A stretch of DNA of 17,017 nucleotides. Source: an uncultured Granulosicoccaceae bacterium. Lineage in GTDB: Bacteria > Pseudomonadota > Gammaproteobacteria > CALCKW01. The notes beneath the pieces are model-generated. The model did not search any database, had not been told where the DNA came from, and was given only the letters and a program-made list of their open reading frames with translations. Position 1 is the first letter of the stretch. Every line of letters begins with the position of its first letter. Shown piece by piece: positions 8,436-13,480 of this stretch. The stretch is taken from NCBI GenBank assembly GCA_937941555.1, contig CALDHJ010000401.1, positions 1 to 17,017 on the forward strand. The letters are read 5' to 3'. The position numbers and the translations under genes were made by a program.

Positions 8436-9938
8436 ATGTGCGGCATCGTCGGCATCATTGGATGCAGTCCGGTAAACAACGACCTGTACGAGGGGCTGCT
8501 GTTACTTCAGCACCGCGGACAGGATGCTGCAGGTATCATGACCGGCGACACCGACGGTGTAGGCAAGGTCTATATCCGCCGCGGTGTGGGTTTGGTTCGC
8601 GATGTCTTCCGACAGGAACACATGGAGCGCCTGCGTGGCACCATGGGCATCGCCCACTGCCGTTACCCGACGGCAGGAACCAACTCGGGCACCGAAGCGC
8701 AGCCGATGTATGTCAATTCGCCCTACGGCATCGCGCTCGCGCACAACGGCAATCTGACCAATGCCGCCGAGTTGGGTGCCGAGCTCTACCGCAGCGATCT
8801 GCGACACATCAACACCCGGTCTGATTCGGAAGTGTTGCTCAACGTGTTCGCGCACGAGCTACACCAGCAAATCGACTCAACGCATTTAAACCACCAGCAA
8901 GTCTTCGCAGCAGTCGACTCGGTCCACGAACGTTGCCGCGGTGGTTTTGCGGTGGTGGCGATGATTGCCGGGCGTGGATTGTTGGCGTTTCGTGACCGCC
9001 ATGGCATTCGGCCGCTGGTGCTCGGCAAGCGGGTTGGCAGCGACGGTGAAGAGTATATGGTCGCGTCCGAAACCGTTGCGCTCAAGGGTCTGGGCTACAA
9101 ACCCGTGCGCGATCTCGAGCCGGGCGAGGCCATCTATATCGAAGCCAGTGGCGCCCTGCACAGCCACCGCGTGCCGACCAATATTCCGTTCACACCCTGT
9201 GTTTTCGAACACGTCTACTTTGCAAGGCCTGATTCCACGATCGACGGTATCTCCGTCTACCAGGCGCGCATGCGCATGGGGATCAAACTTGCAGAAAAGA
9301 TCGAGCGTGAATGGCAAGGGCACGACATCGATGTCGTGATCCCGATTCCGGAGTCGAGTCGAACTGCAGCCCTGGAACTCGCGCAGAAGTTGAACATTCC
9401 CTACCGCGAAGGCTTCGTCAAGAACCGCTACGTGGGGCGGACTTTCATCATGCCTGGTCAGCAGGTTCGACGAAAATCGGTTCGACAAAAGCTCAGCAGC
9501 ATCAACGAAGAATTCGCTGGTAAAAACGTACTGCTGGTAGACGATTCGATCGTGCGCGGCACGACGTCGGAGCAGATCATCGAAATGGCCCGCGAGGCGG
9601 GTGCGCGTCGCGTCTACATGGCCTCGGCCGCACCGCCGGTCAAGTTCCCGAATGTCTATGGCATCGACATGCCGACGCGTGAAGAGCTGATTGCCAACGA
9701 GCGCGATACCGATGACATCTGCCGCACCATCGCGGCCGACCGTCTGATTTTTCAGGACGTGGAGGATCTCATCGAGGCCGTTCGGGGCGAGAGCACTATC
9801 GAACAGTTTGAAACCTGTTGTTTCACCGGTGAGTACGTCACAGGTGATGTCGATGAGGCCTATTTCGATGCCCTGCGCAAACGCCGCAAAGACGGTTCAG
9901 ACGGCCAGGAGAAGGCCGAGTCGGTCGACATCGTCTGA
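8436..9938 (+). CDS. purF: Amidophosphoribosyltransferase
   Basis: Commits PRPP to purine synthesis: glutamine + PRPP gives 5-phosphoribosylamine. The 500-residue product starts MCGIVGIIG, so Cys2 becomes the N-terminal nucleophile of the Ntn glutaminase domain after Met removal. Further signatures are [33 protein letters not shown] and the PRPP-binding loop [13 protein letters not shown] (365-377). The length is typical of proteobacterial PurF. ATG 8436 follows cvpA by 24 bp with a short AAGG at 8422-8425. It is the last gene of the plus-strand run and converges on the minus-strand L,D-transpeptidase gene. Confidence 0.97.
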
Positions 9939-9970: not shown

Positions 9971-11290
9971 TCAACGACTGCCGGGGATAGCGCGATTGCG
10001 CGCGGGTGGGGCAGCGGCTTCGCGCGGCAGCGCGTTGGCCTCTACGGTCTGCACTGGCGTATTGCGCGGTCGCGGTGTGACGCGTTCGGTCTCCAATGTC
10101 AGCCTCCACGCGCCCTTGCGCAACGCCCAATACTGCGTTTTGACGCTCTTGTCCTCATAGCGGGTGGAGCGATAGTGCTGCTTGAAGCGCACCTCGGCGA
10201 CGGGAGTGCCATCGATGTCCTCGAACATCAGCATTTCACGCTCGGACATGTCGATTTCGATGGCGGCGTTGCGGCGAGCGATTTGACGTTTGCGCTGTTC
10301 GAAGCCGCGGCGCGTCAGCTGGTCGTTGCGAAACTCGGCGTCATGCAGAGACATGAACCTATCCATGTCGCCCTCGCTCCAACTGCGGCGCCAGAGCTCG
10401 AGCGTGTCGTGCAAGTCCTGGCGCATGCTGGCGAGGGTGCTCTGATCGACCCAGTTGATCGAGTCGACCATGATCACCGGGGTCGCGCCGGCCGTGCTCC
10501 AGGCGTTCAGGCTCGGCATCACGCGGTTGCTTATGACAACACACCCCATGGAATCTCGTGGTGGCCGGGCATAACTGTCGCGAGGCTGGCCGTGAATCCA
10601 GATGCCGTAACCGGTGCGCCCGTGGAATTTGTCCCAGGCGTTCGGGTAGTCCAGCGGCAACGCGCCGTGCCCGTAGAGTTCGGGCAATTCCTCATCGGGT
10701 AGAAACGGCTGTATTCGGTACAACCCGATCGGAGTGCGGTTGTCGCCTTCGCGTTCTTTGCCGGTACCGGACTTTCCAATCGTCACGTAGTGGTCGCCGT
10801 CGAGCTGCAGTTGCCCGGCGCGGTGCGAATAGAGGTACAGGCGATTCGCCGTGAGGTCGACCATGACAAGGGTGTCTGTGTGAGGGCCGAGCTCAAGCAG
10901 ATTGGCTGGCACGCGGTCGAGACTTTGCGCGATATTGCGTTGACCGGCGAAACGCTGCCTGGCCTCTTCAGCGAGCGCTGACAACCCGTCTCCGGGCACA
11001 TCGAATACGCTTTGTTGGCCGACCAATTGGGCCATGACATCCGCGCGCACGGCATGCGCCAGCTGAAAGGTCGGGTGCTCGTCGATCAAAGTGTCGAGCT
11101 GCAGCAAAGCGTCATTGAGCTGACCAGCCCGAAGCATTTCGAGTCCTGCAGCCAGGCTCGCCTCTGCAGGGTCACGCAATTCTCGGGCTTGCGGTTTGTT
11201 CTCCGCAGCCGCAACGTTCGGGGTGGTTAGCGCCAGACACAACACCGCCAGGGCTGGCATGAGTTTCAGAGGTCTGACAGGATTTTCCAT
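9971..11290 (-). CDS. Secreted L,D-transpeptidase-family protein (YkuD) with TPR-like and NTF2-like domains
   Basis: Probable peptidoglycan-modifying enzyme. The 439-residue protein has a signal peptide (about 1-29, cutting near VAAA/EN), a short TPR-like region (about 43-90), a YkuD catalytic domain (about 138-278) and a C-terminal NTF2-like domain (about 288-410). The catalytic pair is visible: His233 in GIWIHGQP and Cys250 in SMGCVVIS. YkuD enzymes form 3-3 cross-links, attach lipoproteins or trim tetrapeptides. The YkuD plus NTF2-like order resembles Helicobacter Csd6 and Campylobacter Pgp2, which are L,D-carboxypeptidases shaping the cell; whether this protein cross-links or trims cannot be told from sequence. 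The start ATG (11288-11290) lies inside the upstream gene (25-bp overlap, different frame) without a Shine-Dalgarno sequence, suggesting translational coupling. Confidence 0.88.
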   Translation of the reverse strand: MENPVRPLKLMPALAVLCLALTTPNVAAAENKPQARELRDPAEASLAAGLEMLRAGQLNDALLQLDTLIDEHPTFQLAHAVRADVMAQLVGQQSVFDVPGDGLSALAEEARQRFAGQRNIAQSLDRVPANLLELGPHTDTLVMVDLTANRLYLYSHRAGQLQLDGDHYVTIGKSGTGKEREGDNRTPIGLYRIQPFLPDEELPELYGHGALPLDYPNAWDKFHGRTGYGIWIHGQPRDSYARPPRDSMGCVVISNRVMPSLNAWSTAGATPVIMVDSINWVDQSTLASMRQDLHDTLELWRRSWSEGDMDRFMSLHDAEFRNDQLTRRGFEQRKRQIARRNAAIEIDMSEREMLMFEDIDGTPVAEVRFKQHYRSTRYEDKSVKTQYWALRKGAWRLTLETERVTPRPRNTPVQTVEANALPREAAAPPARNRAIPGSR

Positions 11291-12039
11291 TGGTTGCTGG
11301 CGTTTCGTTGCAACAGCACGTTGCGCACGCGTTGGGTATCTGATCGGGGGTCATGCAGGCTGAATGCCACCACACTCAGGGTGTCGTTCACGCGGAGCGC
11401 CTGGACGAGCTCTGCTCGCGGCGCATAGCGTGGCGAATCGGCAAATGCGCCCAACACTTCGAGTTGCCAGGCGGCGCGAGAGTTCCCGTTCGGCGGTGCA
11501 TAGGCCGGGGTGTAGAGCCCGAGGAAGCCGGCGGTATCACGGTCGCCGAGCGCGCGCCCGTAGTCGGACACGAAATCTGCAATGGCGGCCAGTTCTGTTG
11601 GCGAAGCGGCTGTCTCTTTCGGTGACGCTGTGTGCTTGGAGATCAACCAACGCAGTGCGGGTGTCGCGGGTTCGTCGGATTCGCCGAGCGCCTTGTTGAG
11701 CGATCTGGCCGCTTGAACGGCGCGCAGTGCCTTGACGTTCTCGAACGCCGCTGCCGCGACCGGGTGAGCTGCAATTGTGGCTTCGAACTTTGCGATAGCG
11801 CCGTCCAGATCGCCCTGGCGAGCCTTGAGTACGGCGAGATTGTGGTCGGCGATTCGGAACGTCTCGGACGCGGGCTCTGCCGTACTGAGCACGTCATCCA
11901 ATGCCGCCCTGGCGTCGCTCAATCTGCCAATTTCGTAGGCCTGCGTCGCCGACTCGAGTGTCGAGGCGTGGATCGAAAAAGACGTTAGAAAAGTCAGTAG
12001 ACACAGCGTGAACCACATCGGGAGGCGTCGCTTGGGCAT
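11266..12039 (-). CDS. Secreted TPR and NTF2-like domain protein, companion of the L,D-transpeptidase
   Basis: Hypothetical 257-residue protein. It has an N-terminal signal peptide (MPKRRLPMWFTLCLLTFLT..., cut near SIHA), a TPR-like part (about 20-100; repeated A..G/ALDD and GDLDGAIAKFE patterns), a linker and a C-terminal NTF2-like domain (about 145-257) ending WKILSDL. No catalytic motif is visible. In layout it looks like the downstream enzyme with the YkuD domain removed. The start is uncertain: GTG at 12072 would add 11 residues, ATG 12039 gives the cleanest signal peptide and ATG 12018 would lose the basic n-region. None has a clear Shine-Dalgarno sequence. Its 3' end overlaps the next gene by 25 bp, so they form one operon. 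I infer an accessory or substrate-binding role in cell-wall trimming, with low certainty. Confidence 0.78.
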   Translation of the reverse strand: MPKRRLPMWFTLCLLTFLTSFSIHASTLESATQAYEIGRLSDARAALDDVLSTAEPASETFRIADHNLAVLKARQGDLDGAIAKFEATIAAHPVAAAAFENVKALRAVQAARSLNKALGESDEPATPALRWLISKHTASPKETAASPTELAAIADFVSDYGRALGDRDTAGFLGLYTPAYAPPNGNSRAAWQLEVLGAFADSPRYAPRAELVQALRVNDTLSVVAFSLHDPRSDTQRVRNVLLQRNASNQWKILSDL

Positions 12040-12118
12040 GTAAACGGGCTTCAGGAAGGTGGCGAAGAGCACAGAGAGTAGGGCGTGGGCAGTTGTTCGG
12101 AAAGGTTTTTTTTGCCAA

Positions 12119-12126
12119 TCTATAGC
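12119..12126. promoter_or_regulatory. Candidate bidirectional promoter -10 (CTATAG core) between the L,D-transpeptidase operon and metZ
   Basis: The palindrome CTATAG (12120-12125) gives a plus-strand -10 TATAGC (12121-12126) and a minus-strand -10 TATAGA (12119-12124), each four of six consensus. On the plus strand the start would fall near 12133, exactly where the SAM-II-like aptamer begins. On the minus strand GTCAAA (12142-12147, 17-bp spacing) could be a weak -35, giving a leader of about 70 nt to ATG 12039. A run of eight T (12106-12113) lies next to it. The -35 elements are poor in both directions. Confidence 0.45.
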
Positions 12127-12133
12127 GGACTTG

Positions 12134-12184
12134 AGCGCCGATTTGACCTATCAGCTTGCGGGCGCGTGAGAAATGCCGCTAAAG
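12134..12184 (+). ncRNA. SAM-II (SAM-alpha, metA-motif) riboswitch aptamer upstream of metZ
   Basis: P1 is GCGCC (12135-12139) with GGCGC (12161-12165). It is followed by the conserved GATTTGACC (12140-12148), CTTGC (12155-12159), GTGAGAAATG (12166-12175) and the 3' motif GCTAAAG (12178-12184). The pseudoknot helix P2 forms between UUGCGG (12156-12161) and CCGCUAA (12176-12182), with U12180 unpaired; G12161 is shared with P1. The three U residues of GAUUU, the UU of UUGC, and the U and A residues of GCUAAA match the positions that contact SAM in the published SAM-II structure, as I remember it. SAM-II represses methionine-synthesis genes when SAM is high, which fits the next gene, metZ. The identification is by eye, from memory of the consensus. 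Confidence 0.85.
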
Positions 12185-12207
12185 CGACGCCTGAGCACCG
12201 TTTTCGA

Positions 12208-12274
12208 TTCTCCTGCTGTCGCGTTCCCTGCCACAGAACCGCTGAGTTGTGTGGCACTGGCCCACTTTGGAGAG
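12208..12274 (+). promoter_or_regulatory. Possible expression platform of the metZ leader: hairpin and anti-Shine-Dalgarno
   Basis: Between the aptamer and metZ, TGCCACA (12229-12235) pairs perfectly with TGTGGCA (12250-12256), and AAC (12237-12239) with GTT (12246-12248) inside it. Outside this hairpin, TTCTCC (12208-12213) is complementary to the metZ Shine-Dalgarno GGAGAG (12269-12274; one G-U pair). The pair would close around the hairpin and hide the ribosome site. No T-tract terminator is seen, so control at translation is more likely. How it would communicate with the aptamer is not evident. Confidence 0.35.
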
Positions 12275-12280
12275 TGATTG

Positions 12281-13480
12281 ATGACGGACAATTCCGGTTT
12301 GAATCCCCACGCCTGGCGTGCCGAGACGCTGGCCCTTCGTGCGGCCCCGCTGCGCACGGAAGAGCGAGAACACAGCGAGGCCATTTTCCCGACATCGAGC
12401 TTCGTCTTTGACGGAGCGGCCGATGCCGCTGAGCACTTCTCGTCTGGCGGCGTCGACGACAATGTCTACTCGCGGTTCACCAACCCCACCGTTCGCGCTT
12501 TCCAGCAGCGCCTGGCCGCACTTGAAGGTGGCGAAGCCTGTATCGCCACGTCCTCCGGCATGGCGGCGATCATGACGCTGTGTCTGGGTGTCCTCAAGCA
12601 GGGTGATCATGTGCTGGCCGCACAAGGCATGTTCGGATCGACAACGGCTCAGCTCACGCGTTACATGCCGCGCTGGGGGATCGACGTCGATCTGGTGCCG
12701 CTGGCCGATGCCGAGGCCTGGCGTGCAGCAATGCGGCCGAACACCCGCCTGCTCATTGTCGAAACGCCGACGAACCCCATGATGGAAGCAGCCGACATCG
12801 CGGCGCTGAGCGACATCGCTCACTCAGGCGGCGCATTGCTGGCTGTGGACAATTGTTTTTGCACGCCAGCTTTGCAACAGCCGCTTGCCCTCGGGGCCGA
12901 TGTGGTGCTCCATTCGGCGACCAAATACCTCGATGGCCAGGGCCGCTGTGTCGGCGGGGCGGTGGTAGGGCGCCACGACCTCATCGACACAGAGCTGTTC
13001 GGATTCATGCGCAGTTTCGGCGCGTGCATGAGCCCTTTCAACGCCTGGGTGTTTCTCAAGGGCCTCGAGACCTTGCCACTGCGCATGCGTCAGCACTGTG
13101 AGAACGCCACGGCACTCGCCAACTGGCTGGTATCTCACGACAGTGTTGAACAAGCGATCTATCCCGGATTGCCGGAGCATCCACAACATGCGTTGATCGC
13201 CCGGCAGCAACTCGCGTCCGGCGGCATGGTGTCTTTCGTAGTGCGTGGTGGACAAGCGGCGGCGTGGCGGGTCATAGACCGCGTCAAGCTGATGTCGGTA
13301 ACCGGCAACCTCGGGGACGCGCGAACGACGATCACACACCCGGCGACCACCACGCACGCGCGCCTCAGCGATGAACAACGTGCGCAGGCCGGCATTGTGG
13401 GTGGCTTGCTGCGGGTATCGGTCGGACTCGAGCACCCGGATGACATCCGCGCTGATATCGAGCAGGCCCTTGCCGGGTGA
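12281..13480 (+). CDS. metZ: O-succinylhomoserine sulfhydrylase
   Basis: PLP enzyme of the Cys/Met-metabolism family that makes homocysteine directly from O-succinylhomoserine and sulfide. The 399-residue product shows SRFTNPTVRAFQQRLAALEG, ATSSGMAAIM, the Asp-containing VDNCFCTPALQQPLALGAD, and the PLP Lys at residue 215 in HSATKYLDGQGRCVGG. SATKY(L/I)DGQGR is characteristic of MetZ rather than MetB. ATG 12281 is chosen because GGAGAG (12269-12274) is well spaced; the TTG at 12278 would add one residue, and an in-frame TGA at 12275 rules out anything longer. A SAM-II-like riboswitch lies in its leader, so SAM feedback is likely. In Pseudomonas metZ follows purF directly; here two minus-strand genes separate them. 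Confidence 0.95.
   Translation: MTDNSGLNPHAWRAETLALRAAPLRTEEREHSEAIFPTSSFVFDGAADAAEHFSSGGVDDNVYSRFTNPTVRAFQQRLAALEGGEACIATSSGMAAIMTLCLGVLKQGDHVLAAQGMFGSTTAQLTRYMPRWGIDVDLVPLADAEAWRAAMRPNTRLLIVETPTNPMMEAADIAALSDIAHSGGALLAVDNCFCTPALQQPLALGADVVLHSATKYLDGQGRCVGGAVVGRHDLIDTELFGFMRSFGACMSPFNAWVFLKGLETLPLRMRQHCENATALANWLVSHDSVEQAIYPGLPEHPQHALIARQQLASGGMVSFVVRGGQAAAWRVIDRVKLMSVTGNLGDARTTITHPATTTHARLSDEQRAQAGIVGGLLRVSVGLEHPDDIRADIEQALAG

Follow-up and report, generated by a model that had tools for sequence, protein, structure and literature searches.

The window, by which we mean the whole 17,017-nt stretch of DNA that was analyzed, contains metZ, and a match to NF006003 at 622.9 bits (cut-off, 522) supports the identification of MetZ that had been made earlier from the letters and reading frames alone (the sequence-only reading). 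FimV, TruA, TrpF, AccD, FolC, and PurF also score over their NCBIfam cut-offs, and DedD-like and CvpA proteins match NCBIfam families below the cut-offs. The gene order is as the sequence-only reading described it, and the gammaproteobacterial setting that it proposed is supported by the NCBIfam matches, by named MetZ loci, and by a tree of MetZ. purF does not directly adjoin metZ: two reverse-strand genes, one for an L,D-transpeptidase/Cds6_C protein and the other for a protein that is TPR-like (below cut-off), separate them (positions 9971-12072). The aptamer that is our subject sits in the divergent gap between these reverse-strand genes and metZ, and its end is 84 nt from the metZ start codon. 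The features are collected in Table 1.

Table 1. Features of the metZ leader and of its surroundings, with positions in the window
Feature	Position	Strand	Basis or remark
purF, frequent upstream neighbor of metZ in relatives	8436-9938	+	TIGR01134; synteny
Putative -35 box, TTGTTC	12093-12098	+	Consensus match only
Putative -10 box, CAATCT	12116-12121	+	Predicted; the start would fall a few nt 5' of P1
SAM-II (SAM_alpha) aptamer	12130-12196	+	RF00521, 32.3 bits over 12125-12203; R2, 67.8 bits
P1, 5' strand, GCGCC	12135-12139	+	Pairs with 12161-12165
Conserved loop L1, GATTTGA	12140-12146	+	Invariant or nearly so across 150 aligned sequences
P2 pseudoknot, 5' strand, TCAGCTTGCG; A12153 unpaired	12151-12160	+	Pair counts in the alignment
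CTTGC	12155-12159	+	Sequence
P1, 3' strand, GGCGC	12161-12165	+	Pair counts in the alignment
P2 pseudoknot, 3' strand, C12176 and GCTAAAGCGA; C12177, T12180, and A12183 unpaired	12176-12187	+	Pair counts
GCTAAAG	12178-12184	+	Sequence
Proposed antisequestor, left arm, GCGACGC	12184-12190	+	Overlaps P2; hypothesis
Proposed anti-Shine-Dalgarno, ATTCTCC	12207-12213	+	Complement of 12269-12275; hypothesis
Proposed antisequestor, right arm, GCTGTCGC	12215-12222	+	Inside the TCCTG[CT][TA]GTCGC block; hypothesis
Spacer hairpin, TGCCACAGAAC/GTTGTGTGGCA, between anti-Shine-Dalgarno and Shine-Dalgarno	12229-12256	+	Fold
metZ Shine-Dalgarno region, GGAGAGT	12269-12275	+	6-12 nt 5' of the ATG at 12281
metZ, O-succinylhomoserine sulfhydrylase, presumed regulated gene	12281-13480	+	NF006003, PF01053

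All of the leader motifs that the sequence-only reading named are present, in the order it gave. When the window was searched with all 4227 Rfam families, RF00521 (SAM-II) was the sole family at E ≤ 1; the match spans the full length of the model (positions 1-79), with E = 5.1e-4. In the genome as a whole (3.43 Mb, 79% complete), this is the only RF00521 match at E ≤ 1e-3 (E = 2.4e-5). The score of 32.3 bits is formally below the family's gathering score of 36, an outcome that the sequence-only reading had listed as counting against its claim. The gathering score is a detection cut-off and not a biological feature, and we read the shortfall as a probable threshold effect rather than a refutation, because the match is the only one in the genome, because a copy from the same genus (in genome G003) reaches 38.7 bits, and because a second model, R2, gives 67.8 bits. 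R2 is based on 50 metZ leaders, none from the window's genus, and holds one aptamer that is identical to that of a named locus (L066). Against the window's genome, it scores the aptamer at E = 8.9e-17, and the runner-up place has just 12.6 bits. Another model, R1, was trained on a set that includes the window, 20 named loci, and the aptamers of L054 and L066 (which entered it under different names). For the window and those loci, R1 scores are therefore not independent evidence; hence our use of R2.

The comparison genomes comprise four of the window's genus and then relatives no closer than the class. metZ lies 3' of the aptamer in all four members of the genus, and the metZ homologues of G001, G002, and G003 are 66-80% identical to that of the window. 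The RF00521 cut-off falls inside this one genus: the G003 copy is over it, and the window's copy, like that of G001 (33.9 bits), is not. The G002 copy, which has a variant core (GCTAAAC), scores 23.9 bits (E = 0.0065). This match is weak by itself, because a looser search (E ≤ 0.1) also gave RF00521 matches in 3 of 14 control genomes, none over the cut-off; the G002 copy is assigned as a putative SAM-II aptamer from its position before metZ and its R2 score of 56.8 bits.

We aligned 150 aptamers: that of the window, 129 other RF00521 matches, and 20 found by a pattern in named genomes. Five of 135 RF00521 matches were dropped, namely L205 (probably false, without GCTAA), L158 and L189 (missed by the pattern), and L161 and L179 (duplicates), as were three of 23 named pattern matches (the duplicates L054 and L066, and L067, where the pattern is at the wrong place). 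With P1 and P2 as in Table 1, 93.7% of the cells are paired, versus 26-54% when the partners are slid by 1-3 columns. Two-sided changes were found in 101 cells and at 8 of the 15 pairs. None of 500 shuffles reached the observed percentage, the number of two-sided cells, or the covariation score, and two reached the number of pair types.

The covariation lies in P1 and in one pseudoknot pair. All six aligned pairs of P1 show two-sided changes. Five of them form in the window; the outermost (A12134/G12166 in the window) is unpaired in 36 of the 150 sequences, the window included. The four core pairs of P2 (UUGC/GCUAA) are formed in all 150 without any variation, and hence carry no covariation information. 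The flanking pair G12160-C12176 is GC in 140 sequences, AU in 8, CG in 1, and unpaired in 1; it is thus compensated in 9 of the 150, with no one-sided change. U12151-A12187 has 14 two-sided cells and is unpaired in 29 sequences, and G12154-C12185 and C12155-G12184 are unpaired in 44 and 25. Of the pseudoknot as first drawn (UUGCGG/CCGCUAA), the core pairing stands but the GG/CC extension does not: G12160 pairs with C12176, and C12177 is bulged. Pairing of P2 to C12177 works in 41 of the 150 sequences and was rejected; G12161 belongs to P1.

The leader shares with SAM-II, as presented in the accessible part of its description (PMC1273637), the P1 hairpin, the P2 pseudoknot, the GATTTGA loop, and the CTTGC/GCTAAAG core, as well as a putative promoter right before P1, a methionine gene 3', and the expected OFF logic. 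The promoter-like arrangement (TTGTyn, 17 nt, CAAyCT) is at the same position in three of the four same-genus leaders (the window, L010, and L005). Relative to the Rfam form, the common form in this class has a nearly fixed P1 (GCGCC/GGCGC) and mostly scores under the RF00521 cut-off, and where the Rfam consensus line has A and U, it has G-C (12160/12176 in the window), which is a compensated change. Given the RF00521 match, the G003 copy, the R2 score, and the covariation, the claim of a SAM-II aptamer before metZ holds: the aptamer is genuine, and it is very probably a working riboswitch. We put the probability that it is a functional SAM-II OFF switch of metZ at roughly 90%, with SAM binding and the OFF direction presumably carried over from the SAM-II family. 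When S-adenosylmethionine is abundant, SAM would occupy the pseudoknotted aptamer (P1 and P2), and less MetZ would be made.

The output of the switch may differ within the class. Our own detector found a terminator 3' of the aptamer in 72 of 92 metZ-linked leaders; it is crude, in that 20 of the 92 lack a terminator by its rule, yet L150, L155, and L168 look by eye like missed terminators. A CTTTAGC-like stretch, a possible antiterminator through pairing with GCTAAAG, is present in 57 of the 92 (by a loose pattern). In contrast to most of the relatives examined, the window's genus does not seem to have a terminator: over the 130 nt 3' of GCTAA that were searched, the detector found none in the four members, the window included, and no member has a run of five or more T's there.

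Three of the four genus members contain a block, TCCTG[CT][TA]GTCGC, 3' of the aptamer; the fourth (L046) is without it. The three copies are identical at 10 of 12 columns, as compared to at most 8 in 200 shuffles, a test that shared descent inflates. Two pairings are possible, that of GTCGC with GCGAC, where P2 ends, and that of the neighboring CTCC or TCCTG with the ribosome site; together, they would give two exclusive states and so a translational OFF switch. At low SAM, GCGACGC would pair with GCUGUCGC and keep the anti-Shine-Dalgarno away; at high SAM, P2 would claim the left arm, AUUCUCC would bind GGAGAGU, and translation of metZ would be off. The UCUCC/GGAGA region is paired in the minimum-energy fold of the window's leader, and the spacer pairs with the ribosome site in the folds of L001, L010, and L005, each with different letters. 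Translational control was also proposed for a SAM-II riboswitch from the Sargasso Sea metagenome (PMC9373788, in the text available); there, the Shine-Dalgarno sequence is inside the pseudoknot, whereas here it lies some 80 nt further 3', and an intermediate anti-Shine-Dalgarno would have to connect the two.

For the window's genus, we give about even odds to this mechanism, by which SAM would control whether the metZ ribosome site is masked. The complementarity between the aptamer end and the spacer is not significant in the window (p = 0.375) or in L010 (p = 0.459), and is so only in L005 (p = 0.048). In thermodynamic folding, the window's Shine-Dalgarno sequence is 0.42 unpaired both with and without the aptamer, and its exposure does not differ in L010, L005, or L046 either. 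The fold with GCGAC/GUCGC enforced is 2.3 kcal/mol above the free minimum in the window, and for the antisequestor the penalty over the minimum is 2.3-4.9 kcal/mol. Because the antisequestor is above the minimum and there is no thermodynamic difference at the Shine-Dalgarno sequence, folding during transcription would be needed.

A more tentative proposal is that the output is transcriptional, with SAM promoting termination (intrinsic or Rho-dependent) before metZ. This would agree with the terminators in most metZ-linked leaders, with the predicted termination at the SAM-II riboswitch of S. meliloti metZ (PMC9373788, in the text available), and with the stable hairpin in the window's spacer. 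However, the hairpin is followed by CTGGCCC, and the four genus members lack T runs in this region, which makes us doubt this alternative. We think it improbable that the aptamer is a relic, conserved while control of metZ was lost in this lineage. The RF00521 score under the cut-off, the lack of a terminator by our detector, and the GCTAAAC variant of G002 would all fit with decay, but the core positions and pairs are intact in the window, L005, and L010. Also, three genus members have kept the promoter spacing and the downstream block while the other spacer sequence differs.

It is very unlikely that the RNA belongs to another SAM class that resembles SAM-II, either SAM-V or the "SAM-II long loops" of Bacteroidetes and marine samples (PMC2864571, in the portion seen). 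According to the accessible text of PMC2704228, SAM-V has a similar pseudoknotted core and many ligand contacts in common with SAM-II but is without the final 3' pairing. In the window, P2 appears to be extended 3' (12184-12187), which is probably the very element that SAM-V is said to lack; besides RF00521 being the sole family at E ≤ 1, the SAM-V model itself had no match in the window at that threshold. Last, a chance resemblance, which the sub-threshold RF00521 score might suggest, can be dismissed, as the gap between 67.8 and 12.6 bits with R2, the location ahead of metZ in each of the four members of the genus, the covariation, and the conservation within the genus speak strongly against it.

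The sequence-only reading had suggested that the SAM-II riboswitch might be transferred, or rarely noted, in a gammaproteobacterium. We compared the window to 80 named MetZ loci, the best among at least 584; these are at most 65% identical to the window's MetZ over the best segment, and nearer records may be absent. Among these best 80, 25 have the aptamer, with at least 56 bits (R2) and at least 59 bits (R1), and the next-highest scores are 21.7 and 21.8 bits (R2 and R1). The switch-bearing records include Methylobacillus, Nevskia, Ectothiorhodospiraceae, Chromatiales, Thiotrichaceae, and Acidiferrobacterales. Not one of the records from Pseudomonas (4 in the set), Acinetobacter (6), or Halomonas (2) has the switch. 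The match in Nevskia L056 is full length. Two Solimonas metZ leaders (L080 and L101, about 2830-2947) have split, partial matches to the aptamer models and are possibly decayed or rearranged copies.

Among the loci with at least 1500 nt of upstream sequence (the other 11 of the 80 are too short), purF is on the same strand 5' of metZ in 15 of 21 loci with the switch and 35 of 48 without it. Over the 82 rows of a MetZ tree, the entries with the switch cluster, though in scattered places: the distribution of the switch requires 12 changes (mean of 22.7 in shuffles, with 0 of 500 as low), 6 of which are forced by well-supported branches. The window's MetZ is beside that of a Granulosicoccaceae member, with weak support (38/45). 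Transfer is thus not supported, as purF synteny is alike with or without the switch, which occurs widely across the class. In particular, neither synteny nor the tree (which holds no alphaproteobacterial MetZ) supports transfer from alphaproteobacteria, and a recent joint transfer of the switch and metZ is not supported. From the synteny and the tree, the switch therefore occupies an old gammaproteobacterial neighborhood, and its distribution appears to reflect either an early presence followed by losses or gains on several occasions.

The other suggestion, "rarely noted," is correct in part. The accessible text of PMC2704228 already places SAM-II in Alpha-, Beta-, and Gammaproteobacteria, against the claim; narrower ranges, in agreement with it, are given in the available portions of PMC4239095 (SAM_alpha from Rhizobiales and Rhodobacterales only) and of PMC3766115 (SAM-Alpha among motifs present in at most three groups). 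SAM-II is an already known riboswitch; in this class the switch is not rare, and its transfer is not supported.

Across 369 genomes of the class, RF00521 matches 118 at E ≤ 1e-3, 30 of them over the cut-off, and none of the 14 control genomes match at E ≤ 1e-3. R1 matches 197 of the 369 at E ≤ 0.05, a count that includes weak matches and training sequences. The gene 3' of the 135 RF00521 matches (including L205, which is probably false) is metZ in 92 cases, with metZ defined as a homologue at least 40% identical to the window's; metK in 13; a distant Cys/Met enzyme in 4; and another gene or none recognized in 26. The last group includes metF in L008, L139, and L171, by eye. We also examined 31 hand-picked class genomes, mostly with weaker R1 matches, and called genes by eye from their first residues. 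Judging from motifs in those residues, R1 matches precede what we take to be metE in L223 and L230, metX in L232 and L233, and metN-like ABC genes in L235, L239, L242, L244, and L245. L246, which we also take to be metN-like, has a partial R1 match without GCTAAAG. In L226 and L228, the gene that follows the SAM-II-like match resembles an aspartate kinase by eye.

We also searched 100 genomes from the order of genome G225, which we take to be betaproteobacterial from its MetX. At E ≤ 0.01, R1 matches 74 of them and RF00521 matches 46, of which 16 are over the RF00521 cut-off. By eye, the genes at 30 loci from this order are metZ (18), metX (5), metH (2), threonine-dehydratase-like (1), and unassigned (4), and those at 20 further chosen, mostly weaker, places are metZ (6), metK (6), metX (3), metH (2), metN-like (2), and other (1). 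Close pairs of R1 matches occur in genomes of this order, such as G399, G443, G413, G420, and G372.

Variant forms were also seen. Tandem SAM-II-like elements were found in L029, L037, L131, L190, L194, L210, L212, and L139 (in the aptamer and the next 100-150 nt). The layout is aptamer, terminator, and then all or the beginning of a second element, GCCGATTT[AG]A..ACAACTTGCGG, which continues to GCTAAAGCG in L029 and L037; some tandem elements precede non-methionine genes. Genome G248 has five RF00521 matches (L029, L127, L129, L131, and L133) and ten R1 matches, with no recognizable methionine gene directly 3' at the five loci fetched. Six metK leaders (L283, L290, L294, L295, L296, and L298) have a SAM-II variant, with G[AT]GTTAA or GATTTAA, GACAACTTGC, and GCTAAAGCG, and none of the six matches RF00521 at E ≤ 1. 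SAH riboswitches (RF01057, over cut-off) are divergent from the variant metK leaders of L295 and L298, at the start of the locus on the - strand. Finally, an insertion, sometimes hairpin-like, lies between the 3' strand of P1 and GCTAAA in L282, L284-L289, L292, and L293; L239, L242, L245, L247, L249, and L250 have the same type of form.

Two RNAs that were reported under other names may belong here. First, the accessible text of PMC4239095 describes a novel betaproteobacterial "metXZ" RNA, with no ligand given, which has six conserved regions, a terminator, and a pseudoknot (region 1 with 4 and region 2 with 6), and which precedes metX, or metZ in Methylophilales and others. By this description, the metXZ element would be like SAM-II in its pseudoknot, its terminator, its metX or metZ genes, and its taxa. 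SAM-II was found at the sites given for metXZ, among them metZ of a Methylophilaceae record, Methylobacillus rhizosphaerae (R2, 62.3 bits). We infer that the metXZ element is a SAM-II leader, because SAM-II precedes metX, metZ, metH, and metK in the betaproteobacterial-looking order of G225.

Second, Bp2_Cand287 is a Burkholderia RNA that was detected by RT-PCR; its homologues precede methionine genes, and a cis-acting role was suggested (PMC3521395, in the text available). Of 20 loci scanned with its Rfam family, RF02424 (Bp2_287), 5 gave a match that overlaps the SAM-II element (L264, L268, L256, L037, and L299). Each of these weak matches lies on the opposite strand and scores 21.9-37.3 bits, under the cut-off of 70; two have E < 0.01, and three have E of 0.29-0.68. 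The Bp2_287 sRNA is perhaps a SAM-II leader, less surely than metXZ. In the open-access literature, as far as its accessible text goes, the 2014 paper (PMC4239095) was the only one found in which metXZ and riboswitches are mentioned together, and we found no link of SAM-II in gamma- or betaproteobacteria to metXZ or Bp2_287. The under-detected beta- and gammaproteobacterial branch of SAM-II probably absorbs one of the other named RNAs and perhaps two.

These observations can be joined into one reading, which we slightly favor. In that reading, a large beta- and gammaproteobacterial branch of SAM-II, mostly missed by the Rfam cut-off, would control the methionine regulon (metZ, metX, metH, metK, metE, metF, and metN-like genes). 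The branch would include a variant of the metK type whose P2 letters differ (GACAACUUGC/GCUAAAGCGUC), forms in which an insertion separates P1 from P2, and tandem copies; metXZ and Bp2_287 would be different names for the same RNA; and the window's genus would have swapped an ancestral terminator for an anti-Shine-Dalgarno switch. Our confidence is no higher because only two of the five Bp2_287 overlaps have E < 0.01.

Taken alone, the window adds one more SAM-II riboswitch, and the wider under-detected pattern in beta- and gammaproteobacteria is of more interest. Annotation that is bound to the cut-off would overlook SAM feedback on methionine synthesis in many members of the class, because most copies are sub-threshold (30 versus 118 of 369 genomes in the class, and 16 versus 46 of 100 in the order of G225). 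Two RNAs that were reported as novel may be SAM-II. The window's genus also lends itself as a natural test case for how an aptamer may go from a terminator to a translational output.
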